A stretch of DNA of 64,000 nt, taken from NCBI GenBank assembly GCA_013697245.1, contig JACCXH010000049.1:62001-126000 (forward strand), read 5' to 3'. Shown in pieces: positions 33,873 through 52,453 of the stretch; the stretch's first letter is position 1, and each line of letters starts with the position of its first letter. The notes below the pieces were generated by a model, which was given only the letters and a program-made list of their open reading frames with translations, was not told where the DNA came from and did no database searches. Position numbers and translations under genes: made by a program. This stretch comes from Bacteroidota bacterium (GTDB lineage Bacteria; Bacteroidota; Bacteroidia; B-17B0; Aurantibacillaceae).

Positions 33873-33915
33873 TAGGGCAAAGTTAATTATTCATTTTTTG
33901 TATATTTATCGCTAA

Positions 33916-34482
33916 ATGTCGCAAAAGATCAGCACCGAAAAAGAATTTAATGAACTCTTCAACCTTTATTATGAAGAGCTTTGCCGCATTGTTATGCCCG
34001 TTGTAAAAGATGCAGATGTGGCTGAAGATGTGGTGCAGGATGTTTTTGTAAAGATGTGGACAAGGCGCGAGCAACTTGTTATAAATACTACATTCAAAGC
34101 TTATTTATATAAAGCCGTTGTGTTTAGGGCACTTGATCATTTACGTAAACAAAAGAACGCGCAAAAGGCAAGCGACGAATTAAAAATAGTTTACCCCCAA
34201 TCGCACAATAATGTGGAGCATGCTATGGAAGAAAAGGAATTGAATGAGGCCATTAATTTTGGCTTGGATAAAATGTCGGAGAACATGCGCTTGATCTTTC
34301 AGTTAAGCAGGTTTAGCGGTTTAAAGAACCGTGAGATAGCGGAGCAATTAGATATTTCGATAAAAACCGTTGAAAGTAATATGGGCAAGGCTTTAAAGAT
34401 CATGCACGAGCATTTAAAGCCTTTTTTAAACACAAGCGGTTACACCATAGTTTGCTGGTTATTGTTTGGATATTTTAAATGA
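33916..34482 (+). CDS. ECF RNA polymerase sigma factor (FecI-like)
   Basis: The 188-residue sigma-70 family ECF factor has region 2 (about 10-85; LYYEELCRIVMPVVKDADVAEDVVQDVFVKMW) and region 4 with a helix-turn-helix (about 135-170; GLKNREIAEQLDISIKTVESNMGKAL). This sigma/FecR/TonB pattern is the Bacteroidota FecI class, activated by a receptor signal across the outer membrane. A hydrophobic tail (CWLLFGYF) is common in this family. FecR and an STN-TonB receptor follow immediately. Candidate binding sites with a shared motif lie 5' of three later genes. Confidence 0.93.
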   Translation: MSQKISTEKEFNELFNLYYEELCRIVMPVVKDADVAEDVVQDVFVKMWTRREQLVINTTFKAYLYKAVVFRALDHLRKQKNAQKASDELKIVYPQSHNNVEHAMEEKELNEAINFGLDKMSENMRLIFQLSRFSGLKNREIAEQLDISIKTVESNMGKALKIMHEHLKPFLNTSGYTIVCWLLFGYFK

Positions 34483-34486
34483 GATA

Positions 34487-34510
34487 GGGTAAAGCCTTTT
34501 TAAAACGACA
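34487..34510 (+). promoter_or_regulatory. Candidate ECF promoter, site 1 (before fecR)
   Basis: GGGTA (34487-34491), a 14-nt spacer and CGACATATAG (from 34506). The same two boxes occur at 38048 and 41492. A degenerate GGG...CGACTAAT pair lies at 34532-34558. The site is 71 nt upstream of the ATG of the FecR gene. Confidence 0.65.
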
Positions 34511-34581
34511 TATAGATAGTTACAAGTTATTAGGGCTTCGACAAACTAAGCGACTAATGATAGTTAAGAAAAAATAATTAA

Positions 34582-35565
34582 ATGCAGGATTGGGAATTAA
34601 TAGGGAAGTACGTGAAAGGGGAAGCCTCACAAGAGGAGAGGGTTACTGTTGAGCAATGGTTAAAGGCCGATAAGGCCAATGAAAGTTTATTTGAAGAAAT
34701 TAAAGCAAGTTGGGCATCAGCAGCAAAACTGAACCAGCATATTAAAATTGATAAAGCAAAAGCCTGGAATTCGATACAACAAAAAATAAAAGAAGAAGAA
34801 AAGATTATTCCAATTAGCCGTAAAGCACCTGCTTATAATAGCTGGGTATTAAGAGCAGCCGCCATATTAATAGTTGGTTTGTTTGCAACCTGGTATGGTT
34901 TAAAGGTAAATAATAAGCCAGATTTGATCTTGGTACAAACTACCAACGAAACAAAAACGGTTGTTTTACCCGACAGTTCTATAATTATATTGAATGAAAA
35001 CAGCAGGTTGATCTATCCAAAAGAATTTGCAGCCAACGAGAGACATGTTGATCTTGAAGGTGAAGCTTTTTTTGAAGTGACAAAAGATCCGAAAAAACCT
35101 TTTATTATTGATAACAAACATTTTGATGTTAAAGTTTTAGGTACATCTTTCAATGTGCAGGCATATGAAAAAGACGTTGAGGCAACTGTTACCGTGGTTA
35201 CCGGTAAAGTAGCATTCACTGATAAAAAAGGCGGCTCGGTTCTTTTAATTAAAGACGAGGTGGGTACTTTAAACAAAACCGGCCACCAACTTAATAAAAC
35301 AAATAATTTAAATTCTAATTTCCTATCGTGGAAAGCTAAAAAACTGGAATTTACTAATACCAATTTTTCGGAAGTTTGCGCCGCCATAAAAAAGTATTTT
35401 TCAGTGGAGATAGTTGTAAAGGATAAAAATATTTTAAACTGCACATTTACCGGGTATTTTGAGAACCCTAAATTGCCTGATGTTTTAAAAGTATTAGAAA
35501 AAACATTGAACATAAAAACTGTAGTTATTGAAAAAAATGTAGAAATTACAGGCAAGGGATGTTAA
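34582..35565 (+). CDS. FecR-family anti-sigma factor
   Basis: The 327-residue protein has a cytosolic N-terminal domain (about 1-80, 'WELIGKYVKGEASQEERVTVEQWL') that would hold the sigma factor. One TM segment (about 86-106, VLRAAAILIVGLFATWYGL) leads to a periplasmic FecR domain ('GTSFNVQAYEKDVEATVTVVTGKVAF') and a DUF4974 C-terminal part (FTNTNFSEVCAAIKKYF onwards). It relays a signal from the receptor's STN domain. A candidate sigma-responsive promoter lies just before it, suggesting autoregulation, and the receptor follows 8 nt later. Confidence 0.93.
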   Translation: MQDWELIGKYVKGEASQEERVTVEQWLKADKANESLFEEIKASWASAAKLNQHIKIDKAKAWNSIQQKIKEEEKIIPISRKAPAYNSWVLRAAAILIVGLFATWYGLKVNNKPDLILVQTTNETKTVVLPDSSIIILNENSRLIYPKEFAANERHVDLEGEAFFEVTKDPKKPFIIDNKHFDVKVLGTSFNVQAYEKDVEATVTVVTGKVAFTDKKGGSVLLIKDEVGTLNKTGHQLNKTNNLNSNFLSWKAKKLEFTNTNFSEVCAAIKKYFSVEIVVKDKNILNCTFTGYFENPKLPDVLKVLEKTLNIKTVVIEKNVEITGKGC

Positions 35566-35572
35566 TTTTTAT

Positions 35573-38029
35573 ATGAGGCTTTTTGCTACCATTGTTATTT
35601 TGGTGCTATTCAATTCTTTTGTTTTAGCGCAAGGTAATTTATTGGACAAAAAGATCACACTGGCCATAAACAACAATTCTTTAGAACAGGTATTAACCGA
35701 ACTTATAGCGCAAAGTGGCACCAGGTTTACTTATGGCAATACGATAGATCTTAAACAAAAGATCAATATTAATTTTTCTGAGCTCACCTTTAAAGAAGCG
35801 CTTAACAAAGTTTTTGATCCATTAGAAATTAAATGGGAATTAATTGGAGATCAGATCGCGCTTGCTCCCGGAAAAAAACTAAGTTTTAAAATTTCAGGAA
35901 ATCTAAAAGACTCTGCCAACAAAAGCCCTATTGAATTTGCTACTGTTTATTTAAAAGGCGAAAACTATCATGCTTATACCGATTTTAACGGGAGATTTTA
36001 TTTTGATCATATCCCACCGGGCAAATATGTTTTAGTAATAAATGCTTTTGGTTATAAACTAAGCGAGCGGCTAATTGAAATAACTGATCAGCCTGTTTCT
36101 GTTCCTTTAGAATTAAGTCAGCAGGCCATCATACTTTCTGAAACTATTGTAACGGCCGATAAAATTATTGAGAAAGTATCGGTGAGTGAAATGGAGCTAA
36201 AGCAGGTGCAAATAGAATCTGTAAAAGGGATAACTAACGACCCCATGAAATCGCTTACGGCCCTGCCCGGCGTGCTTACTAAAACAGATCTTTATGGCTC
36301 TTCAGAAATTCATGTAAGAGGTGGTGAATCGTCTGAAAACCTTTTTTTAGTAGACAATATAAAATTACCCTTGCCTTTTCATTTTAGCGGGCAATCTGTT
36401 TTTAATCCCGAGATGCTTGAGAAAGCGGAAGTATTAACCGGTGGTTATGCTGCGAATTATGGCAATGCTATGTCGTCTGTTTTTAATTTAACTACAAAAA
36501 ATGGAAATGCCGAGCGTTGGAGCGGAAATGTTGATCTTAATACTTCTAATCCTTCTTATTTAATACAAGGGCCGCTTAAAAAAAATAAATTGTCTGTTAT
36601 TGTTGGTCTAAGATCGATCTTTAGTGTTTTATCGCCTATCGAAAAAAAAGCAGACCTTACTTCAAAATTTACATATACGCTTAATTATAAAACAAAAATA
36701 AATTTAACCACATTAAATGTTAATGATTACAGCGATACCAGTTTTCAAAAAATTTTGCCAAAAGCAAACGCCTTAAGTAAGATGAACGCGCAAAATTTTC
36801 AGGTGCAAAGTATTATTTCAGATAAAAGTTATAGTAAAACCTCTTTTTTGCATTCAGGCTGGCGTTTAAATATCGATCCTGAAAAATATGGCTATCGCCA
36901 CATCAATTACAACAGTTATGCTTTACGTGAGGACCTTACCTTTTACCCAAAACCAACTACAAAATTTAAAACAGGCTTTGAGGTAAGCCTCGAAGATGAA
37001 AAATCGGACATTGTTGAGTTCTATAAAACAACAGATATTTATCAAACCGATACCACCTCATTGATACAAAGGCGAAAAGTAAATACAATAAATGTTATAT
37101 CATCGGCTTATGCAATTTATGATGCCACTATTTTTAAACGGATAAAAGTAAATGCCGGTTTACGAATAGATCATAATCAACTTGGAAATATATTGGATCT
37201 ATCGCCCCGTGTTACGATGGGTTACGATCTTACCAGCAGCACATTACTTTCGGCCACCTGGGGTTCTTTTAATCAGGCGCCAACCACTTACCAGCTTATT
37301 CAAAATAAAAATTTAAGTTCTAACCATAGCGAGCATACCATTGTTTCTATAAAACAAAAAATTACACCTTTAATATCCGGCAGGGTAGAGGGTTATTATA
37401 AAAAATATACTAACCTGGTAATATTTGATACAGCCTTTGCATACTCTAATAATGGTTATGGCTATTCAAAAGGCATCGAATTATTTTTAATGAAAGAAAC
37501 AGGAAGGGTAAATGGTTGGATCTCTTATTCGATAGCCAAATCAGATAAAAAAAGAAGTCTGCAGGATAAGGTTTACCCTTATTATTTTGATCAAAGACAA
37601 TCCTTAAACATTATCTTAAGTGTTACCGCTAAAGAAAAGAATCGCAAAAGGTTTCTTCCATTCTTATATACGTTTGATTTTAGGTATGCCACCGGCGAGC
37701 CTTACACGCCTATTACCGGGGTAGATTCGGTCGCAGGTAAATATCAATTTACTACCGGCAGCATTAATTCTGCAAGAAATCCCGATTATAATACGTTAAA
37801 CATAAAATTTCAGTGGCATGACAGGGCTATTGGGAAAAAGAAAAAACACATGATGCTGTTTTACCTTAATTTCTGGAACATATATGGTCATTCGAATCTG
37901 GCAGAGCGCTCTTATAGAATTGACCCTATAACCGGATCGGTTTCGGTTACCAACTCTTACCGCAAGTTCTTCGACCTCAATATTGGCTTAAAAATCTGTT
38001 TTAATTACTACAATCCACCAAAAAAGTAG
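35573..38029 (+). CDS. TonB-dependent receptor with STN signalling domain
   Basis: The 818-residue outer-membrane receptor has a signal peptide (1-19). An STN domain (about 27-105, SLEQVLTELIAQSGTRFTYG to FKEALNKVF) contacts FecR. A carboxypeptidase-like domain (about 108-195, KSPIEFATVYLKGENYH, GRFYFDHIPPGKYVLVI) is next, then the plug (about 215-320, GSSEIHVRGGESSENLFLVDNIK), then a barrel ending FFDLNIGLKICFNYYN. No SusD-like gene follows, so a siderophore- or small-ligand-type receptor is as likely as a glycan one. It is the sensor of the sigma system and starts 8 nt after fecR. Confidence 0.93.
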   Translation: MRLFATIVILVLFNSFVLAQGNLLDKKITLAINNNSLEQVLTELIAQSGTRFTYGNTIDLKQKININFSELTFKEALNKVFDPLEIKWELIGDQIALAPGKKLSFKISGNLKDSANKSPIEFATVYLKGENYHAYTDFNGRFYFDHIPPGKYVLVINAFGYKLSERLIEITDQPVSVPLELSQQAIILSETIVTADKIIEKVSVSEMELKQVQIESVKGITNDPMKSLTALPGVLTKTDLYGSSEIHVRGGESSENLFLVDNIKLPLPFHFSGQSVFNPEMLEKAEVLTGGYAANYGNAMSSVFNLTTKNGNAERWSGNVDLNTSNPSYLIQGPLKKNKLSVIVGLRSIFSVLSPIEKKADLTSKFTYTLNYKTKINLTTLNVNDYSDTSFQKILPKANALSKMNAQNFQVQSIISDKSYSKTSFLHSGWRLNIDPEKYGYRHINYNSYALREDLTFYPKPTTKFKTGFEVSLEDEKSDIVEFYKTTDIYQTDTTSLIQRRKVNTINVISSAYAIYDATIFKRIKVNAGLRIDHNQLGNILDLSPRVTMGYDLTSSTLLSATWGSFNQAPTTYQLIQNKNLSSNHSEHTIVSIKQKITPLISGRVEGYYKKYTNLVIFDTAFAYSNNGYGYSKGIELFLMKETGRVNGWISYSIAKSDKKRSLQDKVYPYYFDQRQSLNIILSVTAKEKNRKRFLPFLYTFDFRYATGEPYTPITGVDSVAGKYQFTTGSINSARNPDYNTLNIKFQWHDRAIGKKKKHMMLFYLNFWNIYGHSNLAERSYRIDPITGSVSVTNSYRKFFDLNIGLKICFNYYNPPKK

Positions 38030-38047
38030 TTTTTTTAGTTTAGGGTA

Positions 38048-38076
38048 GGGTATCTTCTTTTTTAACCGACATATAG
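38048..38076 (+). promoter_or_regulatory. Candidate ECF promoter, site 2 (before barrel gene)
   Basis: GGGTA (38048-38052; a second GGGTA lies at 38043-38047), 14-nt spacer, CGACATATAGG (from 38067). Box sequence and spacing match site 1. It lies in the 84-nt gap between the receptor and barrel genes, 38 nt before the ATG. Confidence 0.7.
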
Positions 38077-38113
38077 GTATAAAAGCAAATATTAAACACT
38101 AAAAATACAAATC

Positions 38114-38923
38114 ATGAAAAAAACAATTCTATCACTAGTTATGGGTATGACAAGTTTATGCCTATCGGCCCAGGAAAATAATACCTGGCGCCTTGGAGTA
38201 CAATGGGGCGGCCATGATAACCAGTCAAAATTCAGTGGCGGTTCGCCAAATGCCAATGCGCGTTTTCAGCAGAATGAATTTGGCGGTGGTACATTCAATC
38301 TTATTGCAAGATATGATCTTAATCAACATTGGATGGCAACAACAGGTTTTGGCTTTAATAGCTTCGGTTTTAATTTTTCCTTAGCCGAAAATTATTCTCT
38401 AATAACATTAAAAGATCGGTTTTCTTCGATCCAAACAAGTTATACAGGTGTTGAAATACCTTTTTTGATCTATTATAAATTTAATTTAAATTGTAAAAAT
38501 AACAGATGGCTAATTGGTGGTGGTTTTGCTGCTAATTTTACTGATGGTAAAACAATTTCAAAGAACTTTGTACAAAATAACGATGGCGTTACAAGTTCAA
38601 ATTATTTAAACTCTGTTTCTACTTCAAATAATGGCGGGCATGCCATGTTGCGTTTTGCGGTTGGTCGCGAAAAGGTATTTAAAAGAGGAAGCATGCTTAA
38701 CGCAAGCCTTGTATTTAATGCGGGTTTAGATGAAATAGCCCATGCTACAGTAAACTACACGGTTGATAATCAAAGTTACACACATAGCTTTAGCAATAAA
38801 GGAAATTATGTAGGTTTGCGACTAACTTATTATTTTAGAACGGGTGCTTTTAAATCAAAAACCAAAACGCCAGCAAGAAATGTTAAACAAGCTACACCGA
38901 TAACAGGACCAATAACAAGATAA
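38114..38923 (+). CDS. Outer-membrane beta-barrel protein of ECF cluster
   Basis: The 269-residue product has a signal peptide (1-19, LSAQ) and barrel strands with a repeated Gly-aromatic pattern (FNLIARYDLNQHWMATTGFGFNSFGFNF). It has a C-terminal strand GLRLTYYF and then a charged tail of about 25 residues (FKSKTKTPARNVKQ). That tail is unusual for a barrel end; the frame is intact, so it could be a periplasmic anchor. It is preceded by a candidate ECF promoter and may be a co-regulated partner of the receptor. Confidence 0.7.
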   Translation: MKKTILSLVMGMTSLCLSAQENNTWRLGVQWGGHDNQSKFSGGSPNANARFQQNEFGGGTFNLIARYDLNQHWMATTGFGFNSFGFNFSLAENYSLITLKDRFSSIQTSYTGVEIPFLIYYKFNLNCKNNRWLIGGGFAANFTDGKTISKNFVQNNDGVTSSNYLNSVSTSNNGGHAMLRFAVGREKVFKRGSMLNASLVFNAGLDEIAHATVNYTVDNQSYTHSFSNKGNYVGLRLTYYFRTGAFKSKTKTPARNVKQATPITGPITR

Positions 38924-38949
38924 TTTATAGTTAAATTATTTTTAATCAA

Positions 38950-40263
38950 ATGAAAAACCTTATTTTATTTGTTTTCATCATTTTGAGTTGGAATTTAAAA
39001 TGTCAACCCAATTGGCCACTTACAAAAAGTAATACTACTCTGCAGGTTGCTATTCCTGCAGAGTTTGGTGTACCGGTTGCTCAACCTTTAAGTGTTAATG
39101 GTTGGGAAGATGGAATATTTATTTCCAGAAACGGATTAAATCTTTATTGTATCTATTTACCGGCAGATGCCTTATCGTGGTCGACTAATGGTGCGCCCTG
39201 CGTTTTTGCTCCATATCAAAAAGGCCCTACTTATGGTATGGATCTTACAACTTCTCCAACAACGGTTTGCCCTACTTGGTTACAGGGAGATATACTTATC
39301 TCATCACGAACTTCAACTAACCAGGCTTTCCCTTCATGGACATTATCAAATTTAAGTGGACCAATTTATAGCGAAGGGGCGCCGCAATTTACTATGCTCA
39401 ATTCAACAACATCTGATATTGTTGTTTATACAAGCAATCAACTGCCGCCATATAATGCAGATATTTATTTGATAAAAAATTCTACTGTTAATCCTTCGCT
39501 TACAGGAACAATTTTACCGGCACCTATTACACAAACAACAACGGAAGATAATCCGCACCTTGAAAGATTAAGTGCTAATCAATTGGTTTTGTTTTTTGAT
39601 TCGCCAGATAGAAGCGGAGGGGTAGGCGGCCTGGATATATGGACAGCGCTTAGTAATGACGATGGTCTTACCTGGACTACGCCAATACAAGTAAGTACAA
39701 TTAATACGAATTTAAACGAACACCAACCCCATTTATATAAAGATAATTTTAACCAATGGTGGTTATATTACACCACACCTGATGGATCAGGTAAATATGC
39801 TATTTATCGCGCACAGCAAACTATACCCAATAACTGGAATAGTTGGGGGCCAAAGCAATTGGTAGTAGGCCCCGGAAATTCAGCCGGAATTGGCGAACCA
39901 ACCTTAACTCAAAACGGCGATCTTTCTTTTGTAGTTGTATATCAAGATGCGAATGGAACACCGACAGATAAATTTGATGCAGACCCTTGGTTCCTTCCAC
40001 ATACAACGATCACTTCTATAAGTAAAAATAATTCTTTAGAAGAGATAGGTGCTTATCCAAATCCTGCAACTGAAAGTATTAATTTAAAATTCGTAACTGA
40101 TAATACAGAAACAAGAATACAGATATATAATTATACAGGTAATTTTATTAAGGAATCATCAATCATTAACTCTTCTGTAAATATAAATGATTTGGAAAAA
40201 GGGATTTATTTTTTTAATATAAAAAAAGATGATGGGCATAAAGTAAAATTCATTAAAGAATAA
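38950..40263 (+). CDS. Beta-propeller-type secreted protein, T9SS type A sorting domain
   Basis: The 437-residue product has a signal peptide (1-18) and a repeat region (about 30-350) with propeller-like blades and Asp-box-style turns (DRSGGVGGLDIWTALSNDDGLTW, DGSGKYAIYRA). A T9SS type A sorting domain (about 363-437, IGAYPNPATESINLKF to KVKFIKE) follows. The repeated 'HPHLYK/NPHLERL' and 'PDGSG' features recall glycoside-hydrolase-43/33-like or WD40-like propellers; catalytic acids were not identified. It is 26 nt after the barrel gene, so probably in the same operon. Confidence 0.75.
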   Translation: MKNLILFVFIILSWNLKCQPNWPLTKSNTTLQVAIPAEFGVPVAQPLSVNGWEDGIFISRNGLNLYCIYLPADALSWSTNGAPCVFAPYQKGPTYGMDLTTSPTTVCPTWLQGDILISSRTSTNQAFPSWTLSNLSGPIYSEGAPQFTMLNSTTSDIVVYTSNQLPPYNADIYLIKNSTVNPSLTGTILPAPITQTTTEDNPHLERLSANQLVLFFDSPDRSGGVGGLDIWTALSNDDGLTWTTPIQVSTINTNLNEHQPHLYKDNFNQWWLYYTTPDGSGKYAIYRAQQTIPNNWNSWGPKQLVVGPGNSAGIGEPTLTQNGDLSFVVVYQDANGTPTDKFDADPWFLPHTTITSISKNNSLEEIGAYPNPATESINLKFVTDNTETRIQIYNYTGNFIKESSIINSSVNINDLEKGIYFFNIKKDDGHKVKFIKE

Positions 40264-40274
40264 CTTTGATTATT

Positions 40275-41477
40275 ATGAAATTAAAACTCATTATTGCTAT
40301 TTTGTTTATAAAGTTTTCAGGTTTATTTGGACAGGAGTTTCTTTATTATTGTTCAAGAGCAACTCCAACTACGGCAACCTGGCAGGTGTATAAAAAAAAT
40401 CTTACTACATCTGTAACATATACTATCACGAACGATCCAAATTATAATTATTGGAGGGCAGAGCCATCACCCGATAATTCTAAACTGCTTATTGTGAGAA
40501 GCCCGGCAAACGTTTCGCCAGACCAGGAAAATTATGTGGATTGCGACATTGTAAAATGTAATACTGATGGAACTGGTATGCATGTTATAATTGCGAATAA
40601 TCAATATGGTTGGTACGGCTTTGGTAATCCGCATTTTCATCCCACAGGTAATAGAATTTTATTGATCGCACAGCCAACATCTACTGCTGCATGGAATCTT
40701 TATACTGTAGATACGGCAGGCAATAACCCTCAGCAATTAACTACAACCGGCGGGATCGATGCAAATTGGTCGCCACTTGGTAATAAGGTTGTGTTTGTAA
40801 GTTTAACCGGCCCAAGCCTTTTAAATCTTGAAATATTTAAGGCTAATTATAATTATGCAACTAATCAGGTTTCAAATATTGTGCAATTAACTAACGATAC
40901 AACACGTGACCACGACCCATGTTTCTCTCCTAATGGCGATAAGATAGCTTTTTGTGCGGGTAATGCAAGTTTAACCGATGCAGATATTGTAACTATAGAT
41001 ACTTCGGGTGCAAATAGAACCGGTGTTGTAAATGATAACGGTACACATGGTGGAAATGTAAACTGGGGCACAAATAATAAAATTTATTACCACAGTATTT
41101 ATGTAAGCACATTTACAAATTTTATGGCAGATGATTTTAATTGCGGGACTAATTCTGTTGAAGCGATATTTAACTCTTCATCCATTCATTACCTGCATCC
41201 TTTTTACAGGAACCAGATAACAACAAGCATAAAAAACCTTCAGGAGAAAAAAGGTACAATTTCATGTTTCCCAAATCCGGCATTTAATATTATTAATATA
41301 GTTTTGGAGAATCAGATAAAAGACATTATTCAAATAACAGATTGTTTGGGGCGTATTGTTTCTATGCACGAAATTGATAAAACTACTTCTATTGATCTTG
41401 AGACGCTGCAACCGGGTATTTATTTTCTTGTTTCAAAAACGGATCAGTTTATTCCTCAAAAATTTATTAAAAATTAA
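40275..41477 (+). CDS. PD40/TolB-like propeller protein, T9SS type A sorting domain
   Basis: The product has about 400 residues from ATG 40275; a TTG nine bases upstream (40266) is less likely. The signal peptide ends near GLFG|Q. A TolB-like PD40 propeller covers about 20-310, with the recurrent 'DxxPxFSPNGxKIAF' pattern seen as DHDPCFSPNGDKIAFCAG, EPSPDNSKLLIV, and IDANWSPLGNKVVFVS. The T9SS type A domain is the last 75 residues (SCFPNPAFNIINIVLEN to IPQKFIKN). It starts 11 nt after its neighbour. Likely a surface or secreted binding protein. Confidence 0.8.
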   Translation: MKLKLIIAILFIKFSGLFGQEFLYYCSRATPTTATWQVYKKNLTTSVTYTITNDPNYNYWRAEPSPDNSKLLIVRSPANVSPDQENYVDCDIVKCNTDGTGMHVIIANNQYGWYGFGNPHFHPTGNRILLIAQPTSTAAWNLYTVDTAGNNPQQLTTTGGIDANWSPLGNKVVFVSLTGPSLLNLEIFKANYNYATNQVSNIVQLTNDTTRDHDPCFSPNGDKIAFCAGNASLTDADIVTIDTSGANRTGVVNDNGTHGGNVNWGTNNKIYYHSIYVSTFTNFMADDFNCGTNSVEAIFNSSSIHYLHPFYRNQITTSIKNLQEKKGTISCFPNPAFNIINIVLENQIKDIIQITDCLGRIVSMHEIDKTTSIDLETLQPGIYFLVSKTDQFIPQKFIKN

Positions 41478-41491
41478 TTAATTTTTTTATA

Positions 41492-41518
41492 GGGTATTTA
41501 TAGTGATTTAACGACTAA
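41492..41518 (+). promoter_or_regulatory. Candidate ECF promoter, site 3 (before cargo gene)
   Basis: GGGTA (41492-41496), a 15-nt spacer and CGACTAATA (from 41512). The spacer is 1 nt longer than in sites 1 and 2. It lies within the 58-nt gap before the ATG at 41536. Confidence 0.6.
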
Positions 41519-41535
41519 TAATAAAACCAATAATT

Positions 41536-42867
41536 ATGAGATCAATTTTTTATTTTTTTCTATCTGTAATTGTACTTGTCTTTAATAGCAATGCGCAAAT
41601 TACTCCCGCAAATAATAAAATAAGTGTAGACGTTAGTACACCACCGCAAAACGCAAGTTTTGATTACGATTCCTGTTTTACTATTGGTAAAAATCTGGGG
41701 ATGACGCAAACCGGTATATTTCAGGCTTGGGCAGATATTGAAATAGCGCCAATGAATTACAGTATGACCGTTTTTAATACTATGAATTGGTATTATCCGA
41801 TGCATAATATGGCAATAGATCTAACACTGGCGCCAATTGCCACAAATGTTTTGGAAGTGCCTTCTGATCTTACAACTACAGCATTTAGCAGTACGGTAAT
41901 GATAAACCGTTTTAAACGATTGCTGGATAGTATAAAAGCGCATATTCCAAATGTTACCTTGTCTTCCTTGGTTATTGGTTCTGAACACGATATTTATTTT
42001 GGAAGTAATGCTACCAAATGGTCTGAGTACACCACATTTTATAATGCGGTTTCTGTTTATGCCAAAACACTTTGGCCGGGATTAAAAGTTGCAACAGAAT
42101 TAACGTTTGACGGATTAACCACGCAAAATACATTTGCACAAACGCTCAATACAAATAGCGATTATATTGGCGTTTCATATTATCCTTTAAATTCAAACTT
42201 TACGGTAAAGCCTGTTTCAAGCATTCCAACAGATTTTGCAACGCTAGTAGGCTTATATTCATCAAAGCCTTTGTGTTTTTACCAATATGGATATCCAAGC
42301 AGTACAACCTGTAATAGTTCGAACGCCTTACAAAAACAGTTTATTACACAAACTTTTTTGAGTTGGGATGTTTATCATACAAACATTAAAATGATCGATT
42401 TTACATGGCTTCACGACCTGAGTATGGCGCAGGTAAATTATTTTTCAACGTATTATGGTATCAATAATCCGGTTTTTCTTGAATATATACATACGCTTGG
42501 TTTTAGAGATTGGAATGGGAGTGGATTGGATAAGCCGGCGTTGAATGAATTGCGTTGTCAGGCAAAGGTAAGAGGGTATAATAATTTAACGGTTGCAAAT
42601 TGCGCGGTAACGGTACTTGATAAAAACAAAGTTAACAATTCAGGCGTTTCGGTTTTTCCCAATCCTGCATCTTCATTGCTTAGTATTGAATCGGGACCAC
42701 ACGATTTTAGTAAAATTTTTATTTATGATGTGCTCGGTAATAAAGTAGATGAAATGGATTTTTCCGGTCATATAAATATATCACATTTAAGCAATGGTAT
42801 TTATTTTATACAGCTTTATGATCAGTTGCAAGTAAGATATAGCACAAAAATTGTTGTGAGTAGATAA
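41536..42867 (+). CDS. TIM-barrel-like glycosidase candidate, T9SS type A sorting domain
   Basis: The 443-residue product has a signal peptide (1-21, SNAQ) and a domain of about 320 residues with alternating strand/helix character, such as LVIGSEHDIYFG, GLKVATELTFDG, SDYIGVSYYPLN, KPLCFYQYGYP and MIDFTWLHDLS. This resembles a glycoside hydrolase TIM barrel; E152 in GSEHD and the downstream polar strand ends are candidate catalytic positions, by analogy only. The T9SS domain covers the last 75 residues (VSVFPNPASSLLSIESG to STKIVVSR). It has its own candidate ECF promoter and closes the cluster. Confidence 0.72.
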   Translation: MRSIFYFFLSVIVLVFNSNAQITPANNKISVDVSTPPQNASFDYDSCFTIGKNLGMTQTGIFQAWADIEIAPMNYSMTVFNTMNWYYPMHNMAIDLTLAPIATNVLEVPSDLTTTAFSSTVMINRFKRLLDSIKAHIPNVTLSSLVIGSEHDIYFGSNATKWSEYTTFYNAVSVYAKTLWPGLKVATELTFDGLTTQNTFAQTLNTNSDYIGVSYYPLNSNFTVKPVSSIPTDFATLVGLYSSKPLCFYQYGYPSSTTCNSSNALQKQFITQTFLSWDVYHTNIKMIDFTWLHDLSMAQVNYFSTYYGINNPVFLEYIHTLGFRDWNGSGLDKPALNELRCQAKVRGYNNLTVANCAVTVLDKNKVNNSGVSVFPNPASSLLSIESGPHDFSKIFIYDVLGNKVDEMDFSGHINISHLSNGIYFIQLYDQLQVRYSTKIVVSR

Positions 42868-43016: not shown

Positions 43017-43427
43017 TTAAACAAGAAAATTCTTAAAGTATTTATCAATAATAATCTCCATCTTTTCTTTTGTGAGTGGTTTTGTGATATAATCAGAAAC
43101 AAAATTCCAGGTTTTTGATTTTTCAACATCTATATTATTGATGGATGTTGATAGCATAATAATTATAGCTTTATGTTCTAGCTCTTTTTCTAGCTGATTA
43201 TATTCATCCAGAAATTCCCAGCCGGTCATTACCGGCATATTAATATCTAAAAGGATCAGATCTGACAGAGGTTCAGTTTTTGCCTTAATATATTCTAATG
43301 CTTTTCTGGCAGAATTTTTTACGATTACAGTTTCTGCAAGGTGATTATCGACAATTGCTTTTTCGTGAAAAAAGTTATCATCTTCATCATCGTCTATCAA
43401 CATAATACAATTTAATTTATGGCTCAT
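43017..43427 (-). CDS. Single-domain response regulator
   Basis: The 136-residue receiver protein has acidic pocket D12-D14, phospho-acceptor D61 (LLDINMPVMTG), a Ser/Thr in LSTSI and K in ITKPLTK. There is no output domain, as in Rcp1-like or CheY-like proteins. Its ATG overlaps the stop of the upstream repeat kinase (ATGA), so the two are translationally coupled and form a two-component pair. Confidence 0.92.
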   Translation of the reverse strand: MSHKLNCIMLIDDDEDDNFFHEKAIVDNHLAETVIVKNSARKALEYIKAKTEPLSDLILLDINMPVMTGWEFLDEYNQLEKELEHKAIIIMLSTSINNIDVEKSKTWNFVSDYITKPLTKEKMEIIIDKYFKNFLV

Positions 43428-45262
43428 AATGTCAAATTTGGTATTGTGAAATAAAATGTAGTTCCTTCATTTGGTAGCGATTCAAGCCAGATTTCTCCTT
43501 GGTGCAATTGAACTATTTTTTTGCAATTGGCTAAACCAATACCACTTCCTTCATATTCCGTTTTTCCGTGTAAACGCTGAAAGATGTCAAATATTTTTTC
43601 ATAGTGAATGGCTTCTATACCAATTCCATTATCTTTTACGGCAAACTGCCATTTGCCATTAATCTCTTCCGATAAGATGCTTATTTGGGGCTGTACACCG
43701 GCTTTTTGAAATTTAATAGCATTTGTTATGAGATTTTGAAACAATTGATGCATTTCTGTTTCGTAAATATTTAATACAGGCATTTCCGGTATTTCGATAA
43801 TAGTATTTGTTGATTTAATTAATGTTTCGTGATCGTCGAGCACTTCATTCAATAATTTTTTCATGTCAACGCTGGTTAATTTTCTATTATGACCTAATTG
43901 CGAAAATATCAATAATGAATTTATCAATAGACTCATTCGTTTAATAGCGTTATTTGCCGAGTGAATGTATTTGCCGGCATTTTCGTCAAGCAAGCTTAAA
44001 TACTGTTCTTCAAACAAACGCATGTAATTTGAAACTGTTCTTAAAGGTTGCTGAAGATCGTGTGAAGCAATAAAAGCAAATTGCTCTAATTCTTTGTTAA
44101 CCATATTCAACTCGGTTGCCCTTTTTTCTTTTTCTTCATTTTGAAAAGCTAATTCTACATTTGCGAGGATCAATTCTGCCGCACGTTTTCCTTTTTCATC
44201 GCTTTGAAAAGCGAGTTCTTTATTAGCAATCACCAATTCTGCCGCACGTTTTCCCTTTTCCTCATTCTGAAATATTAATTCTGTATTGGCAATCATAAGC
44301 TCATCCGAACGTTTTTCCTTTTCTCCGTTTTGATAAGCAAGCTCCGTATTCGCAATTCCTAATTCGGCAGCCCTTTTTTCTTTTTCGTTGTTTTGGTAAG
44401 CAAGTTCTTTGTTTGCAATAATAAGCTCTGCTGCACGTTTTCCTTTTTCCTCGTTCTGAAATACAAGCTCAGTATTGGCTATCATTAATTCGTCTGAGCG
44501 TTTCTCTTTTTCTTCATTCTGATATGCTAATTCAGTATTTGCAATTCCTAACTCAGCGGCTCTTTTTTCTTTTTCATCGTTTTGGTAAGCAAGCTCTGTA
44601 TTGGCAATAACCAATTCTGCCGCCCGTTTTCCTTTTTCTTCATTCTGAAATATCAGCTCGGTATTTGCAATCATTAATTCGTCTGAACGTTTTTCTTTTT
44701 CTTCATTTTGGTACGCCAATTCAGTATTGGCAATGCCTAATTCAGCGGCGCGTTTTTCTTTTTCTTTATTTTGATAAGCAAGTTCTGTATTTGCAATAAT
44801 TAATTCTGTAGCGCGTTTTTCTTTTTCGGCATTTTGGTAAGCCAGTTCTTTATTGGCGATGCTAAGCTCTGTTGCTCGTTTTTCTTTTTCCTCGCTTTCA
44901 AAAGCATGCTCTTTATTGGCGATTATTAATTCAGCCGCACGCTTTGCTTTTTCTTGATTTTGATATGCTAATTCAATATTGGCGATTATTAATTCAGCTG
45001 CCCGCTTACCTTTTTCTTCATTTTGGAATATTAATTCTTTATTGGCTATCAGTAACTCAGCCTCTCTTTTCACTTTTTCAACATTTTGAAATGCCAGTTC
45101 AATATTTGCAATTACAAGTTCTGCAGCACGTTTTACTTTTTCTTTGTATTCTAATGCCAGCTCTTCTTTAATAAGCTGATATTCTTCGGCATATTTTTCT
45201 ATACTCAAGTTTTCTTTTTTTCTGGAAGGTCCATAAGCGTAAACTTTATTTATATTAAGCAT
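43424..45262 (-). CDS. Cytosolic histidine kinase with 17x21-residue coiled-coil linker
   Basis: The product has about 612 residues from ATG 45262; a TTG at 45292 adds only ten residues. No TM or PAS domain. Residues about 41-397 are 17 consecutive 21-residue units (consensus EKEKRAAELIIANTELAYQNE) of heptad-pattern coiled coil, ending three residues before the phospho-acceptor His (H401, ASHDLQQPLR). The HisKA/HATPase domains have an N-box (NLITNAIKFQ), G1 (DNGIGI), F-box (IFQRLH) and G2 (GSGIGLANC). Input is not obvious: the long rod may assemble with a partner. It overlaps the response regulator downstream, and faces a divergent small-gene cluster. Confidence 0.9.
   Translation of the reverse strand: MLNINKVYAYGPSRKKENLSIEKYAEEYQLIKEELALEYKEKVKRAAELVIANIELAFQNVEKVKREAELLIANKELIFQNEEKGKRAAELIIANIELAYQNQEKAKRAAELIIANKEHAFESEEKEKRATELSIANKELAYQNAEKEKRATELIIANTELAYQNKEKEKRAAELGIANTELAYQNEEKEKRSDELMIANTELIFQNEEKGKRAAELVIANTELAYQNDEKEKRAAELGIANTELAYQNEEKEKRSDELMIANTELVFQNEEKGKRAAELIIANKELAYQNNEKEKRAAELGIANTELAYQNGEKEKRSDELMIANTELIFQNEEKGKRAAELVIANKELAFQSDEKGKRAAELILANVELAFQNEEKEKRATELNMVNKELEQFAFIASHDLQQPLRTVSNYMRLFEEQYLSLLDENAGKYIHSANNAIKRMSLLINSLLIFSQLGHNRKLTSVDMKKLLNEVLDDHETLIKSTNTIIEIPEMPVLNIYETEMHQLFQNLITNAIKFQKAGVQPQISILSEEINGKWQFAVKDNGIGIEAIHYEKIFDIFQRLHGKTEYEGSGIGLANCKKIVQLHQGEIWLESLPNEGTTFYFTIPNLTL
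44072..45142 (-). repeat. Tandem array of 17 units x 63 bp (21-residue repeat)
   Basis: There are exactly 17 units of 63 bp (1,071 bp) with no insertion or deletion. Units 7-15 (44198-44764) form an A-B-C trimer repeated three times: A contains AAELGIANTELAYQ, B SDELMIANTELIFQNE and C starts EKGKRAAEL. Protein identity is high but DNA differs at many third positions between units. Confidence 0.95.
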
Positions 45263-45618
45263 AATTGTTATAGATGTATCAGTAATATGCAAGCCAATAC
45301 AAAGTGATAAGAGTATATTTTTAGAAAATTAACCGGCTAAAGAACATTCCGGATTATATAACTCCTTAGATATTCTTCTAAAGATACACTTAATTCTAAC
45401 ATTTTACCTATGATTAAAATATAATTATAAATGCTTTTGTCCCATTATCCCATAAACAGCAAATTTGTACACAGTAAGTTTAGTAATACTTGTTGTAAGC
45501 GTCTGTTTGGGTTTGGTATGATTTTAGCAGCATTATATAAAATTCATTTTAATGTTTTCATCCATTGTATTTAAATACAGGGATCCTACATATAAAAAAA
45601 CAAAAAACAATAAAAATT
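45263..45618. other. Divergent intergenic region with 14-bp palindrome
   Basis: Gene-free apart from a weak TTG-started extension of the downstream gene. It holds TGTATTTAAATACA (45566-45579), a perfect palindrome about 40 nt before the ATG at 45619, which could be a repressor site. I saw no consensus promoter of the TTTG-N19-TAnnTTTG type. Confidence 0.45.
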
Positions 45619-46752: not shown

Positions 46753-49700
46753 CTATTCAGCAGAGATATAAATATCAAATTTTGCACCTTTTTCTAATTC
46801 CCCTGTTGCGGTAATCATACCATTGTGGTTTTCTACAATTCGTTTGCATATGGCAAGGCCAATACCTGTTCCGCGATAGTCTTGGGCGCTATGTAGGCGT
46901 TGAAACACTTCAAAGATCCTGTCTTTGTACTGAGGATCAAAACCAATACCATTATCGTTTAATGTAATATGACAGTAAGTTTTTTTAGGTAATAAGTATT
47001 TGTTATTTAATTTATTTCCCTTTGCAATTACACTTTTGATAGTAATAATAGGGGTAACATCTTTTCTTGAAAATTTTAATGAGTTTCCAATAAGGTTATT
47101 CAAAAGTTGGCGAAATTGAAAAGGAATAACCTTAACAGTATCAAGATCGCATTTTATAACGCACTTTTTCTTATTTATAACATCCTCCAGGTCTTTTTCA
47201 ACTTCTTTTACTAATAAATTAAGATCCATCAGTTCAAAAACATGATCAGTTTTTTTTGTGCGTGAATAGGTAAGTAGATCTTCTATAAGGTTCTGCATGC
47301 GGTTTGCAGTAGCCATCATTCTTTGGAAATATCCTTTACCTGTATCTGATAGATTTTTTTCCTCTTCGTTCAAAATACATGTTGCAAAATTCTGGATCTT
47401 GCGTAAAGGCTCTTGCAGATCGTGACTGGAAATATAAGTAAATGAAGTAAGATCTTGGTTAGCGATACTTAATTCTGCTGCTCGTTTTTCTTTTTCATTG
47501 TTTTGGAAAGCCAGTTCGGTATTTGCTATGATTAATTCCGCAGCCCTGTTTTCTTTTTCATTGTTTTGGAAAGCCAACTCCGTATTAGCAACGATCAATT
47601 CTGCCGCTCGTTTTTCTTTTTCATTACCCTGAAATGTGAGTTCTATATTTGCAATACTTAATTCTGCCGCTCGTTTTTCTTTTTCGTTATTTTGAAAAGC
47701 CAGTGTATGGTTTGCGTTTTCGAGTTCGGTATTCTTGAGTTCTAATTGTTTTGTTCTCTCTCTTACCGAGTTCTCTAATCCCAATTTATCTTCCAGATGG
47801 ATGCGAATATCTTCTTCGTTCTTCCAGTCTGCTTTTCTTTGGCGAATGGCCCTCTCGGTAATATCTTTAATTGCAAGCAGTATTAATTTTTCGCGATGTG
47901 TTTTTTGAATAATACGACTGGCATTTAATAGCATTACTTTTTCGCCCAAGTCGGGAAAGGTTTGAGTAACTTCAAAATTAGCAAAGTGTGTATTTTTTAA
48001 GATCATATTATTTAGCAGGTCGTGAAGCTTAGGAATATTCCATTGTTTGTTGCCAAGATCAAATAGGTATGCGCCTTCAGTTTCTTCCTGTGTAACATGA
48101 AATTTTTTGTAGAAGGATTTATTTGCCGATTTTACTTTGAGGTTTCCATCTAACACTAGCATGGGTTCGTGTATAGTTGCAATTATTGTTTGCGAGTAAT
48201 CGTAAGATTCTTCTAACAACTGGTTTTGTTTTTTTAGTTCGCGATTGCTTGTTATAAGCTCATCGTTGGCAGCTTCAATTTCTTCTTTTGTACTTTCCAA
48301 TTCTTCGTTTAAGGTCTGAAACTCTTCATTGCTTGATACAATTTCTTCGTTGGCTGCTTGTAATTCTTCATAAGCAGTTTCGTGTGATTCGATGATGGAA
48401 TGTATCTCTACGCCTGCTGTGTTTAATTCCTCGGTCAATTTTTCTATCCTAAGATCTTTTTGTATTGAATTTTTCTTTGTTGTTTTAGCTGCTTTTTCAA
48501 CCTGCTGTTGTAAAGTAAAAATAACAAGCATTAAGGGTTCAGACCAATCTTGTTTTATTGGGCGTACTTCAAAAGAGATTTTTTGAAAGTTTGTGCCAAT
48601 TTTGATTTCAATATTCGGTTTATTTACCGGCTGCTTTGTTTTTATTACCTGTTGTATTGCATTCCTTAACTCAAAAGAAAATTCTGGACGGGTCATTTTC
48701 AGAATATTTAAGGTCGCTTTTCCAGGATGATGCGTAAGAAATAGGGAAGTGGAACCCCTAAATTGAAGAATATCCATATCCTTGTTAATTAAGGCACAAG
48801 CAGTCATATATCCTGCCAGAAGGATGGAGTCAATCATACCATCTAGCTTTGCAGCGTCAACAGGCTTTTTATTAGTTACTAATTTTATGTTTTTTTCCGG
48901 TATAGCAGATTTTGGAAAACGTGGGTTTAACTCAGGCACCTTTCGGATACCCATGTTTTTTTTACGCGAATAGATCTTGAGTTTTGGGTTTAGCTGTGAG
49001 AAAAGAGGCGACCCTGTTCCTACACTTTCAGATTTCCCAAGCATTAAATACCCTTTTTCGTTTAAAGCAAAATGAAGTGTTGCTAGTACTTTTTTCTGTG
49101 CTTCAGAGTCAAAATAGATCAAAAGATTGCGACAGCTTATAAGGTCCATTCTTGAAAAAGGCGGATCGCGTAAAATATTATGTGTAGTACCAAATACACA
49201 CATGTCCCGCAATGATGCTGTTATTCTATAATTGCCATTAGCTTTTGTGAAAAAATGTTCTAAACGAGATGGCGAAATTGATTTCAGATCACTTTTAGAA
49301 TATTCGCCAAGGCGTGCGCCTTTAATTGTTTGCTCGCTAAGATCAGTTGCAAAGATCTGTACCGGTATTTTAGTTTTTTCTTTTTCCTGAATTTCGGTAA
49401 TAAGCATGGCAATGGAATAAGCCTCCTGGCCGGTAGAGCAGGCGGGTACCCATATTCGTAAGCTTTCGTTTTTAGTTTTATCTTTAATTAATTTTGGTAA
49501 TATATTACTTTTTAAATAACGAAAGTTTTCTGCATCCCTGAAAAAGCTTGTTACATTTATTAAAAGATCCGTATATAATAACGCTACTTCTTTTGGGTTT
49601 TTCGCTAAAAATTTAGCATATTCTTTAACGGTTTTTATATTGTTCTTTTCAATCCTGCGATGAATTCGCCTTTTTATAGTTGTTAGTTTATAATGGCTAA

Positions 49701-50427
49701 AGTCCACATTATTGCTTTTATGTAAAATTTCAAAAATAGAATTCAGGTTCGGATCATTGTCATGGATCAGGTTCTCTCTTATTGGCTCGATAACATATTT
49801 TTCATCCCCGTTTTTACTTAAAAATAACAACTCTTTAGCCATTTCTTGAGGTGATAAAATGAAGTCAACCGCACCTTCGTTTATGGCAGAAGCCGGCATA
49901 CTATTATATTTGGCAGTATCATCTTGCGCAAAAGTTAAGCCCCCTGCTTTTTTAATTGCTTTTAATCCCTTTGTGCCATCGGTTGCGTTTCCTGAAAGAA
50001 TTATCCCAATTACATTTTTTTTATGTGTTTGGGCCAAAGAAGAGAACAGAACATCGATTGAAAAATTGGAAGAAACATTTTTTGGGCGAGGTATTAATTG
50101 TATATGTCCATCCGTTACCCGAATATCTTTGTTATGAGGAATAACGTAAACGTTATTTGGCCTCATTAATTCCATGTTCTCTATTTTCTGAACCTTCATC
50201 TTGGTTGACCTTGATAAAAGCGAGGTTAGCATACTTTTATGAGTACGCGTAAGATGTTGTACGTAAATGTATGCCATTCCTGTATCAGAGGGTAAATTTT
50301 TAAGTAAAGCAGATACAGCTTCAAGACCACCCGCAGAAGCACCAATGGCCACTATCGTAAACGAACTGACTTTATTTTTTTTTGGTGAGATTTTTTTTTC
50401 CTTTGTTGCAGTTGGTTTGACTTTCAT
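46753..50427 (-). CDS. CheB-CheR-PAS-histidine kinase hybrid protein
   Basis: The 1,224-residue protein begins with a CheB methylesterase domain (about 22-205; catalytic S31 in IGASAGG, H58, SGNATDG). A CheR methyltransferase domain follows (about 220-490; VPACSTGQEAYSIAML, FATDLSEQTI, FSRMDLISCRNLLIYFD), then a low-complexity coiled coil (about 650-755, 'EELQAANEEIVSSNEEFQTLNEELES'), PAS (about 760-875), four 21-residue repeats (915-998), and HisKA with H1002. HATPase N-box NNLIGNSLKF, G1 NDNGIGF and G2 GTGIGLAIC are intact. It has no receptor partner. Such hybrids act in envelope-independent signalling, probably not classic chemotaxis. It follows the RR gene on the same strand. Confidence 0.92.
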   Translation of the reverse strand: MKVKPTATKEKKISPKKNKVSSFTIVAIGASAGGLEAVSALLKNLPSDTGMAYIYVQHLTRTHKSMLTSLLSRSTKMKVQKIENMELMRPNNVYVIPHNKDIRVTDGHIQLIPRPKNVSSNFSIDVLFSSLAQTHKKNVIGIILSGNATDGTKGLKAIKKAGGLTFAQDDTAKYNSMPASAINEGAVDFILSPQEMAKELLFLSKNGDEKYVIEPIRENLIHDNDPNLNSIFEILHKSNNVDFSHYKLTTIKRRIHRRIEKNNIKTVKEYAKFLAKNPKEVALLYTDLLINVTSFFRDAENFRYLKSNILPKLIKDKTKNESLRIWVPACSTGQEAYSIAMLITEIQEKEKTKIPVQIFATDLSEQTIKGARLGEYSKSDLKSISPSRLEHFFTKANGNYRITASLRDMCVFGTTHNILRDPPFSRMDLISCRNLLIYFDSEAQKKVLATLHFALNEKGYLMLGKSESVGTGSPLFSQLNPKLKIYSRKKNMGIRKVPELNPRFPKSAIPEKNIKLVTNKKPVDAAKLDGMIDSILLAGYMTACALINKDMDILQFRGSTSLFLTHHPGKATLNILKMTRPEFSFELRNAIQQVIKTKQPVNKPNIEIKIGTNFQKISFEVRPIKQDWSEPLMLVIFTLQQQVEKAAKTTKKNSIQKDLRIEKLTEELNTAGVEIHSIIESHETAYEELQAANEEIVSSNEEFQTLNEELESTKEEIEAANDELITSNRELKKQNQLLEESYDYSQTIIATIHEPMLVLDGNLKVKSANKSFYKKFHVTQEETEGAYLFDLGNKQWNIPKLHDLLNNMILKNTHFANFEVTQTFPDLGEKVMLLNASRIIQKTHREKLILLAIKDITERAIRQRKADWKNEEDIRIHLEDKLGLENSVRERTKQLELKNTELENANHTLAFQNNEKEKRAAELSIANIELTFQGNEKEKRAAELIVANTELAFQNNEKENRAAELIIANTELAFQNNEKEKRAAELSIANQDLTSFTYISSHDLQEPLRKIQNFATCILNEEEKNLSDTGKGYFQRMMATANRMQNLIEDLLTYSRTKKTDHVFELMDLNLLVKEVEKDLEDVINKKKCVIKCDLDTVKVIPFQFRQLLNNLIGNSLKFSRKDVTPIITIKSVIAKGNKLNNKYLLPKKTYCHITLNDNGIGFDPQYKDRIFEVFQRLHSAQDYRGTGIGLAICKRIVENHNGMITATGELEKGAKFDIYISAE
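47434..47685 (-). repeat. Four tandem 63-bp units in the CheB/CheR kinase
   Basis: Four units of 21 residues (for example EKEKRAAELIVANTELAFQ) end exactly three residues before H1002. The distance is the same as in the other kinase of the window, and the unit sequence belongs to the same family as the 17-unit array at 44072-45142. Confidence 0.92.
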
Positions 50428-51573: not shown

Positions 51574-52453
51574 ATAGTTTATTTTTTAATTTTCTTTATT
51601 TAGCATACATGAGGTAAATAAATCACATCGTTTTTAATTATAGTAGATAGTTACAAAGCCCTTTACTGGCAACTAAACCATATGATACTAAATGTTCTTA
51701 TTTTTCAAGTATATTCTGTTAATATTAAGGGAATTTTATGCCACATAAAAATGTAGGTGTTTAACTATATTTATTTTTTTGTTTTAAATCAAAAACCCCC
51801 GCATTACCGGGGGTCTTGTTTCATCGTCTGTTCGTCTTTACCGGCATTACCCTGATTAAGCGCTAGTTTATTTTTTTGATCGCTCTATAAAATCTACTTT
51901 AAACAGATGATCTATAGAGTAGTGACATGAAATTTTTATGCCAATTATTTAATCATACAAAAAGTAAAACAGAGGAAATTATTACCCTATACATTATTTT
52001 AAATGTGGATTTTTTTTCGGGGAAATGCCGGTGTAATATCTATCGGTAACGGGTAGGAATGAAGAGAATGAAATGTCAGGTATTATTTTGGGTTTAGTTA
52101 TTTATATGAGGTATGTTTTTTTTTGGCTTACAAATACAGGTTAATGAATTTCAATAGGCAATATTTGCGATTTGAGTTATAAAAGATAATTTTTCCGCAT
52201 TGGTTTTATTTCTTGCAACGATAGAGAGCTGATATTCCTACAATTTCTTCTCCAAGATTGATTGTGGCTCAAAATAATAAAACCTTTCCATGAATTAATT
52301 TAACATCAAAATTACATGCCTGGTAGGTTAAAACGCTCTTAAATTCCATCTAAAATTCTGTTTACTCATTAAAACCCTAGTTTTAATAAGTCCGTTAGGA
52401 ATGAGTTGTTAAATGGGGTCGAATTTCTTAATTTCATAGCAAAATCCTACGCC
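51574..52453. other. Long gene-free stretch (about 880 nt)
   Basis: I see no open frame of note on either strand and no tRNA. It is AT-rich with T runs. The only clear structure is the hairpin-T run at 51795-51821. The last part must contain the promoter of the large type B T9SS gene, but no consensus element is clear. Confidence 0.5.
51795..51821 (+). terminator. Orphan hairpin terminator
   Basis: ACCCCCG / CGGGGGT, 7-bp GC-rich stem, six-nt loop, followed by CTTGTTT. No plus-strand gene lies upstream of it; the minus-strand dps gene starts on its other side. It could end a small RNA starting in 51574-51790. Confidence 0.6.

Follow-up and report, generated by a model that had tools for sequence, protein, structure and literature searches.

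We analyzed a 64,000-nucleotide stretch of DNA, here called the window, from a Bacteroidota bacterium of the family Aurantibacillaceae (assembly GCA_013697245.1, contig JACCXH010000049.1, positions 62,001 to 126,000 of the forward strand). The window contains a cluster of seven genes that encode a FecI-like extracytoplasmic function (ECF) sigma factor, a FecR-type anti-sigma factor, a TonB-dependent receptor, an outer-membrane beta-barrel protein, and three cargo proteins of the type IX secretion system (T9SS). Three promoter-like sites lie between these genes. An earlier examination of the letters of this DNA, the sequence-only reading, had proposed that the receptor, anti-sigma factor, and secreted proteins form one signal-controlled unit with the neighboring sigma factor as the regulator. 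Our results point to a FecI/FecR-type surface-signaling system with its own promoter class, whose predicted output is T9SS cargo and outer-membrane barrels, and we assign this interpretation a probability of about 0.83. The features of the cluster are as follows.

33901..33908, +: TATATTTA, a variant of the -7 box of Bacteroidota housekeeping promoters, immediately 5' of the sigma factor gene
33916..34482, +: FecI-like ECF sigma factor (P0001, 188 amino acids), Sigma70_r2 and Sigma70_r4_2 above cutoff
34485..34512, +: promoter-like site 1, TAGGGTA-N14-CGAC-ATA, 5' of fecR, between the sigma factor gene and fecR
34582..35565, +: FecR-type anti-sigma factor (P0002, 327 amino acids), FecR 68.4 bits, FecR_C 53.5 bits
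35573..38029, +: TonB-dependent receptor (P0003, 818 amino acids), STN, CarbopepD_reg_2, and Plug domains
38046..38073, +: promoter-like site 2, TAGGGTA-N14-CGAC-ATA, 5' of the barrel-T9SS operon, after the receptor gene
38114..38923, +: outer-membrane beta-barrel protein (P0004, 269 amino acids), OMP_b-brl_2 29.8 bits (cutoff, 27)
38950..40263, +: T9SS type A cargo, BNR-like (P0005, 437 amino acids), Por_Secre_tail 49 bits, TIGR04183 40 bits (cutoff, 23)
40275..41477, +: T9SS type A cargo, PD40/TolB-like propeller (P0006, 400 amino acids), Por_Secre_tail, PD40, TIGR04183 39.9 bits (cutoff, 23)
41490..41518, +: promoter-like site 3, TAGGGTA-N15-CGAC-TAA, 5' of the glycosidase-like P0007 gene, a weaker case
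41536..42867, +: T9SS type A cargo (P0007, 443 amino acids), perhaps a TIM-barrel glycosidase, Por_Secre_tail 44.5 bits, TIGR04183 39.4 bits (cutoff, 23)

P0001 scores above the cutoff of TIGR02985, a Bacteroidota sigma-70 subfamily (157.9 versus 126.4 bits), and below that of NF058625, sigma_PG0214 of the GFO_1088 family (91 versus 130 bits). It is the only one of the seven cluster proteins with a DNA-binding domain recognized by Pfam. P0002 has a single hydrophobic stretch, identified by eye at residues ~89 to 107, and in P0003 both the STN domain (33.9 bits; cutoff, 28.4) and the Plug domain (37.1 bits; cutoff, 23.9) exceed their cutoffs. P0005, P0006, and P0007 share the type A C-terminal sorting domain (39.4 to 40 bits with TIGR04183), and Por_Secre_tail was found in six of eight further target or operon proteins that were scanned. 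No SusD-family match was obtained for the seven cluster proteins in the Pfam and NCBIfam tables, and no Rfam family reached its gathering score in the window, so that the idea of an RNA element was dropped. Judged by spacing, the P0005 gene is probably cotranscribed with the barrel gene; the BNR_2 match of P0005 is weak and under the cutoff. P0007 matches no catalytic family in Pfam. Its structure model is of low confidence (mean pLDDT, 52), and its best fold match is a GH53-type galactanase (template modeling score, 0.33 to 0.45), with other TIM-barrel glycosidases also matched. A named enzyme was rejected because the model is too weak for it, and the fold matches serve as a lead.

The sites at 34487, 38048, and 41492 (counted from GGGTA), with spacers of 14, 14, and 15 and the following bases, are all present as the sequence-only reading had described them. 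The genes behind them begin at 34582 (fecR), 38114 (a barrel of the OMP_b-brl_2 family), and 41536 (T9SS type A), and the earlier assignment of these genes stands except that "glycosidase-like" is reduced to a weak fold match. The three sites are the sole matches to the short pattern GGGTA-N14/15-CGAC on both strands of the 64 kb; dinucleotide shuffles of the window gave a mean of 0.27 matches, and none of 100 reached three. In the genome of the window itself (G000; 4.44 Mb), TA precedes 6 of the 12 matches to this pattern, and all six, whose gene context was read, are intergenic and lie just 5' of a start; the other six lack TA. We therefore adopted a fuller motif, TAGGGTA-N14/15-CGAC-NTA (strict motif), alongside TAGGGTA-N14/15-CGAC (loose motif). 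Mismatch searches in G000 returned 38 and 30 matches, below the 80 and 92 of their reversed controls; the exact matches were the known sites, and site 3 was among the inexact ones. Beyond the boxes used for searching, the target groups have in common an A before CGAC (frequency, 0.86), a T four places before that A (0.87), and a GTA ~10 bases further on, as determined from 26 sites in 8 groups with the groups weighted equally. In our judgment, the arrangement in two boxes, with CGAC preceded by a T-rich stretch, looks promoter-like.

The distribution of the motif follows that of the sigma factor. Among 40 genomes of the same genus, G000 included, an ortholog of P0001 (called at an E value of 1e-45; 57 to 89% identity, G000 aside) occurs in seven (G000, G006, G007, G019, G021, G026, and G031), and an ortholog of the receptor (E value of 1e-60 or better) occurs in exactly these seven. 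In the receptor search, at most 25 candidates were scored per genome, and all candidates were scored in G008 and G061. There are 25 matches to the strict motif, 24 in the seven sigma-bearing genomes and 1 in the 33 sigma-less genomes, 26 of which have a completeness of 90% or more and a contamination of 5% or less; the reversed control gave 8 matches in all 40. The motif is thus present in 7/7 genomes with the sigma factor versus 1/33 without it (Fisher's exact P = 4.3e-7, a value that ignores relatedness), which supports the proposal of one signal-controlled unit. All 25 strict matches are intergenic and lie 18 to 132 nucleotides before the start of an open reading frame (ORF) on the same strand. 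This promoter-like placement, together with sites before unlinked T9SS and outer-membrane genes, argues for the neighboring sigma factor as the likely regulator.

The loose motif has 31 matches in the sigma-bearing and 15 in the sigma-less genomes. The former comprise the 24 strict intergenic matches, the fecR site of G031, site 3, and others discussed below. Among the latter, 11 are inside ORFs, 1 is a site in G008, 1 lies 58 nucleotides before another gene, and 2 are intergenic with no start nearby. In a set of 395 genomes drawn evenly from the class, with the sigma factor called at an E value of 1e-42 from the 8 best candidates per genome, 2 genomes hold the sigma factor and have 5 and 4 strict matches, respectively. 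Twelve of the other 393 have one strict match each, inside an ORF in 11 cases, which corresponds to a background rate of ~0.03 per genome. A search of named genomes with P0001 gave 48 loci, five at 82 to 89% identity and 43 whose best segments are 25 to 41% identical, save three of 44, 49, and 64%; this search was not exhaustive, as the 57% ortholog of G031 was not returned. The close relatives among these genomes are all metagenome assembled. The genes, their domains, the motif and its position, and its co-occurrence with the sigma factor and receptor are direct products of computation.

Strict sites precede seven target groups, which have no mutual blastp match beyond their T9SS tails. These are fecR (6 sites), the operon barrel (6), an unlinked barrel of 227 amino acids (5, plus G008), a T9SS protein of 377 amino acids (3), a GH39-like T9SS protein (2), a putative lipoprotein of 323 amino acids (1, in G000), and a DUF4397 T9SS protein (1, in G031). 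The lipoprotein was labeled by eye from its signal sequence, and the unlinked barrel was labeled from a Pfam match below the cutoff. Like the cluster cargo, the 377-amino-acid and GH39-like targets end in T9SS signals. No family of the T9SS machinery was recognized among the scanned targets, two barrels being without assignment. The motif does not mark all T9SS cargo, since two other T9SS-type proteins of the window lack it: those encoded at 22197-25085 (+), with GEVED and Por_Secre_tail, and at 52406-55819 (+), with Ig_7 and CHU_C. The unlinked barrel has a homolog (E value of 1e-12) in 22 of the 40 genomes, and a site precedes it in 6/6 sigma-bearing genomes (with one mismatch in G026) versus 1/16 sigma-less genomes. 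The operon barrel has 28 homologs in 23 genomes; a site is found before all six operon copies, before none of five paralogs in the same genomes, and before none of 17 copies in sigma-less genomes. Some of these genes are interrupted. The GH39-like gene of G000 (C53; L133 1688-3628) has one in-frame stop, the covered part of its copy in G007 (L120) reads through without a stop, and a barrel paralog at C33 of G000 and one in G019 have one stop each.

Site 1 occupies the same place in all seven orthologous loci, including that of G031, where the fecR site reads CGAC-TAT and not CGAC-NTA. The order sigma-site-fecR-receptor-site-barrel-T9SS is whole in G000, G006, G007, and G019; in G021 and G026, it is divided between two contigs in each case. 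Behind the barrel stand three T9SS-type genes in the window and three or four in G006, G007, G019, G021, and G026; those of the relatives were assigned by similarity, and three of the extra ones were domain scanned. These genes vary, with Vps10/BNR-like proteins in G006 and a GH130-like protein in G019. In G031, a site and the DUF4397 T9SS protein, with no barrel, come after the sigma factor (57% identity), FecR (50%), and receptor (48%). G031 and the varied operon genes suggest that the sensor and promoter were kept while the cargo was exchanged; propellers and GH130-like, Vps10/BNR-like, DUF4397, and GH39-like proteins all stand behind the same predicted promoter. In the recognition-helix region, the sigma factor of G031 differs at 3 of 22 residues, at an overall identity of 57%. 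We consider it reasonably probable that this is a circuit dedicated to T9SS cargo, in which a surface signal acts through the sigma factor on a changeable set of T9SS proteins and barrels by means of its own promoter class, with lineages swapping the cargo while the sensor stays.

The sigma factor gene itself seems to lie outside the regulon. No ECF-like site was found in the 220 nucleotides upstream of it in any of the seven orthologous loci, and autoregulation via the motif was rejected for this reason. The Bacteroidota housekeeping -7 box has the consensus TAnnTTTG, as given in the accessible part of PMC9723704. TATATTTA is found 5' of the sigma factor gene in G000 and G007, and TATGTTTG is found there in four of the seven loci (G006, G019, G021, and G026); no such box is evident in G031. 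With a housekeeping-type box in place of the motif, the sigma factor is probably supplied constitutively from a housekeeping promoter, with the anti-sigma factor and receptor inside the regulon.

In the FecA-FecR-FecI system, when the receptor engages its ligand, the STN domain passes the signal to FecR, and the sigma factor is freed. By analogy, the sigma factor studied here would be expressed from its housekeeping promoter and held by FecR until a ligand at the STN-bearing TonB receptor brought about its release. Free sigma factor would direct RNA polymerase to promoters consisting of TAGGGTA (-35), a spacer of 14 or 15 bases, and CGAC (-10). One set of these promoters would serve fecR and the receptor gene, creating a feedback loop that includes the anti-sigma factor, another would serve the operon of the barrel and its T9SS cargo, and a third would serve unlinked genes for outer-membrane and T9SS-secreted proteins. 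We infer that the sigma factor binds the motif, that transcription starts there, that a surface signal is the input, and that the output may be related to glycans. The C terminus of the sigma factor (33916-34482) has a conserved hydrophobic tail, which may contact the membrane or FecR. The tail was rejected as a special feature, as 20 of 32 other FecI-like sigma factors scored, taken from the 48 loci mentioned above, also have one.

Several observations weigh against a dedicated sigma-dependent promoter class. The short pattern is not enriched genome-wide, with 12 matches in the 4.44 Mb versus 35 for its reversed control, and it was rejected as stand-alone evidence. The sequence-only reading had named a motif common at random positions as a ground for abandoning its proposal; the whole-genome scan finds this to be true of the short pattern and not of the fuller motif. 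Since the sites were collected with the pattern, its boxes are necessarily invariant among them, and 2 of the 31 loose matches in sigma-bearing genomes, 28 of which were placed, are inside ORFs. Site 3 is not kept in its strict form, which occurs in G000 alone. Degenerate counterparts are found at the same place in G021 (TAGGTTA-N14-CAAC) and G026 (TAGGGAA-N13-CGAC), and the position is empty in G007 and occupied by another gene in G006 and G019. Site 3 may be a functional but drifting promoter in G000, and we place less confidence in it than in sites 1 and 2. The recognition-helix stretch is largely common to a 39% identical paralog as well, so that conservation of the helix alone is no proof of specificity.

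The remaining objections concern phylogeny and one exceptional genome. Six of the seven sigma-bearing genomes form one clade, G061 aside, and the tree, which was built from three neighboring proteins with some rows represented by one protein only, yields only two independent contrasts, too few for a test. In favor of a sigma-dependent promoter class, G061, nested inside the sigma-bearing clade (support, 97/100), lacks both the sigma factor and the receptor, and its unlinked barrel (81% identical) has no site before it. Its gene content reads as one clean joint loss of the sigma factor, receptor, and unlinked-barrel site, for which we claim no significance. In G008, a perfect TAGGGTA-N14-CGAC-ATA stands before the unlinked barrel, and no sigma factor or receptor was found in this genome.

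C28, L132 7204, -: G008 site before the barrel gene, perfect motif

The G008 barrel is 46% identical to the unlinked barrel, the genome is 98% complete, and the contig ends ~180 bases upstream of the site. G034, the sister of G008 in the tree, has the barrel and lacks the site. Given the background of ~0.03 strict matches per genome, a chance match exactly at the G008 barrel is unlikely. A missing contig, recent loss, or another sigma factor reading the same motif are possible explanations.

The G008 case raises the possibility that the motif is bound by another regulator, such as a transcription factor or a different ECF sigma factor, and that the neighboring sigma factor is merely coinherited. 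We infer recognition of the motif by this sigma factor; moreover, its locus, the receptor, and the sites co-occur as a package, and an unlinked partner lost along with them would look alike. G000 has 15 matches to P0001 at an E value of 0.001 (itself included), so that other ECF sigma factors are at hand. We nevertheless regard this explanation as unlikely, because the layout is promoter-like, the sigma factor is the only recognized DNA-binding protein of the cluster, and site 1 lies directly behind the sigma factor gene even in G031. A distant sigma paralog (39 to 42% identity) as the true partner was rejected, since the four genomes with such a sigma factor and no P0001 ortholog (G001, G010, G011, and G023; 41 to 42% identity, none closer) have no strict site. 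It appears highly improbable that the sites have no regulatory role and arose by chance or remain from the copying of upstream DNA. The failure of the short pattern to outnumber its control and the common ancestry of the DNA upstream of orthologous targets would fit such an origin, but the strict matches (24 in 7 genomes versus 1 in 33) and loose matches (31 versus 15) are concentrated where the sigma factor is present. In addition, the strict matches are always 5' of starts, before target groups without common ancestry, and all six TA-preceded matches of G000 are intergenic.

A further explanation is that of a conventional FecI system serving a nutrient such as iron or sugar, with the receptor and barrels as the main targets and the T9SS genes as incidental ones. 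The best-kept targets are indeed fecR-receptor (seven genomes), the operon barrel (six), and the unlinked barrel (six), whereas the lipoprotein is a target in G000 only and the GH39-like gene of G000 is interrupted. We find this explanation rather doubtful, because the T9SS-type genes recur behind the barrel in the window and five relatives, because the second site of G031 precedes a T9SS protein with no barrel, and because two unlinked targets end in T9SS signals. A surface-signaling system with T9SS cargo in its own right among the outputs is the interpretation we prefer. A second FecI-like sigma factor of G000 (39 to 40% identical; L131, C21:36001-56000) is encoded ~14 kb away from the unlinked barrel. 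Because the gene for this second sigma factor and the accompanying fecR overlap, its own promoter is unreadable; a like pairing is found in G019 (L136).

The system shares with FecI/FecR/FecA an ECF sigma factor, an anti-sigma factor with a FecR domain, a TonB receptor with an STN domain, and a receptor gene behind a predicted sigma promoter. It differs in that the site lies between the sigma factor gene and fecR, covering the anti-sigma factor and receptor but not the sigma factor, and in that the predicted targets are T9SS cargo and barrels. SusC/SusD loci contain an ECF sigma factor, an anti-sigma factor, and a large TonB receptor that has a CarbopepD_reg domain. The same components are found here, but the cluster proteins have no SusD-family match. 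In Bacteroides, SusC/SusD glycan loci are under ECF sigma/anti-sigma control (PMC13088901). PUMA3/VreI of Pseudomonas aeruginosa is a surface-signaling sigma system whose targets, mostly just downstream, include secreted proteins and secretion systems (PMC2729926); secreted proteins are likewise among the targets predicted here, although that system involves type II and two-partner secretion and this one T9SS cargo in a different phylum. In Porphyromonas gingivalis, SigP controls components of the secretion machine via the two-component system PorXY (PMC4800418). SigP and our sigma factor are both ECF sigma factors of Bacteroidota linked to T9SS-related genes, here by prediction, but a FecR/receptor pair and cargo genes take the place of the two-component system and machinery. 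The motif suggested for SigP in that source, C(T)AAA(G/C/T)A(T)A(C)T(A/G)A, differs by eye from TAGGGTA-N14-CGAC. The SM6 promoters of Flavobacterium psychrophilum, which are ECF type with a CGT box at -10, precede T9SS genes and a sigma/anti-sigma pair (PMC9723704). They too are an ECF-type promoter class in Bacteroidota with T9SS genes behind it; SM6 has a CGT box, machinery genes, and no assigned sigma factor, whereas the present class has CGAC and cargo genes, and the two boxes both begin with CG but otherwise do not match. Searches of open-license papers listed no title or opening of an abstract that deals with this motif or with control of T9SS cargo by a FecI/FecR system. Within these sources, FecI/FecR sensing coupled to T9SS cargo appears new, while surface signaling of secretion and ECF control of the T9SS machinery are already known.

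Because this genus includes genomes that have the sigma factor and genomes that lack it, comparing sequences is enough to arrive at a specific promoter class and a brief list of genes for testing. Bacteroidota genomes hold many FecI-like sigma factors, and to our knowledge the promoter sequence and regulon of most of them are not known; the same comparison could serve for others of this family. If our interpretation is correct, surface sensing would be linked to the production of T9SS cargo, whereas PMC4800418 and PMC9723704, in their accessible parts, concern the secretion machine.

Downstream of the cluster, a histidine kinase gene at 43427-45292 (-) contains ~16 copies of a 63-base (21-amino-acid) repeat, and a CheB-CheR-PAS-kinase gene at 46756-50427 (-) contains ~4 copies of a similar unit. 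Judged by eye, G006 and G021 also encode proteins with repeats of similar appearance next to the sigma locus.

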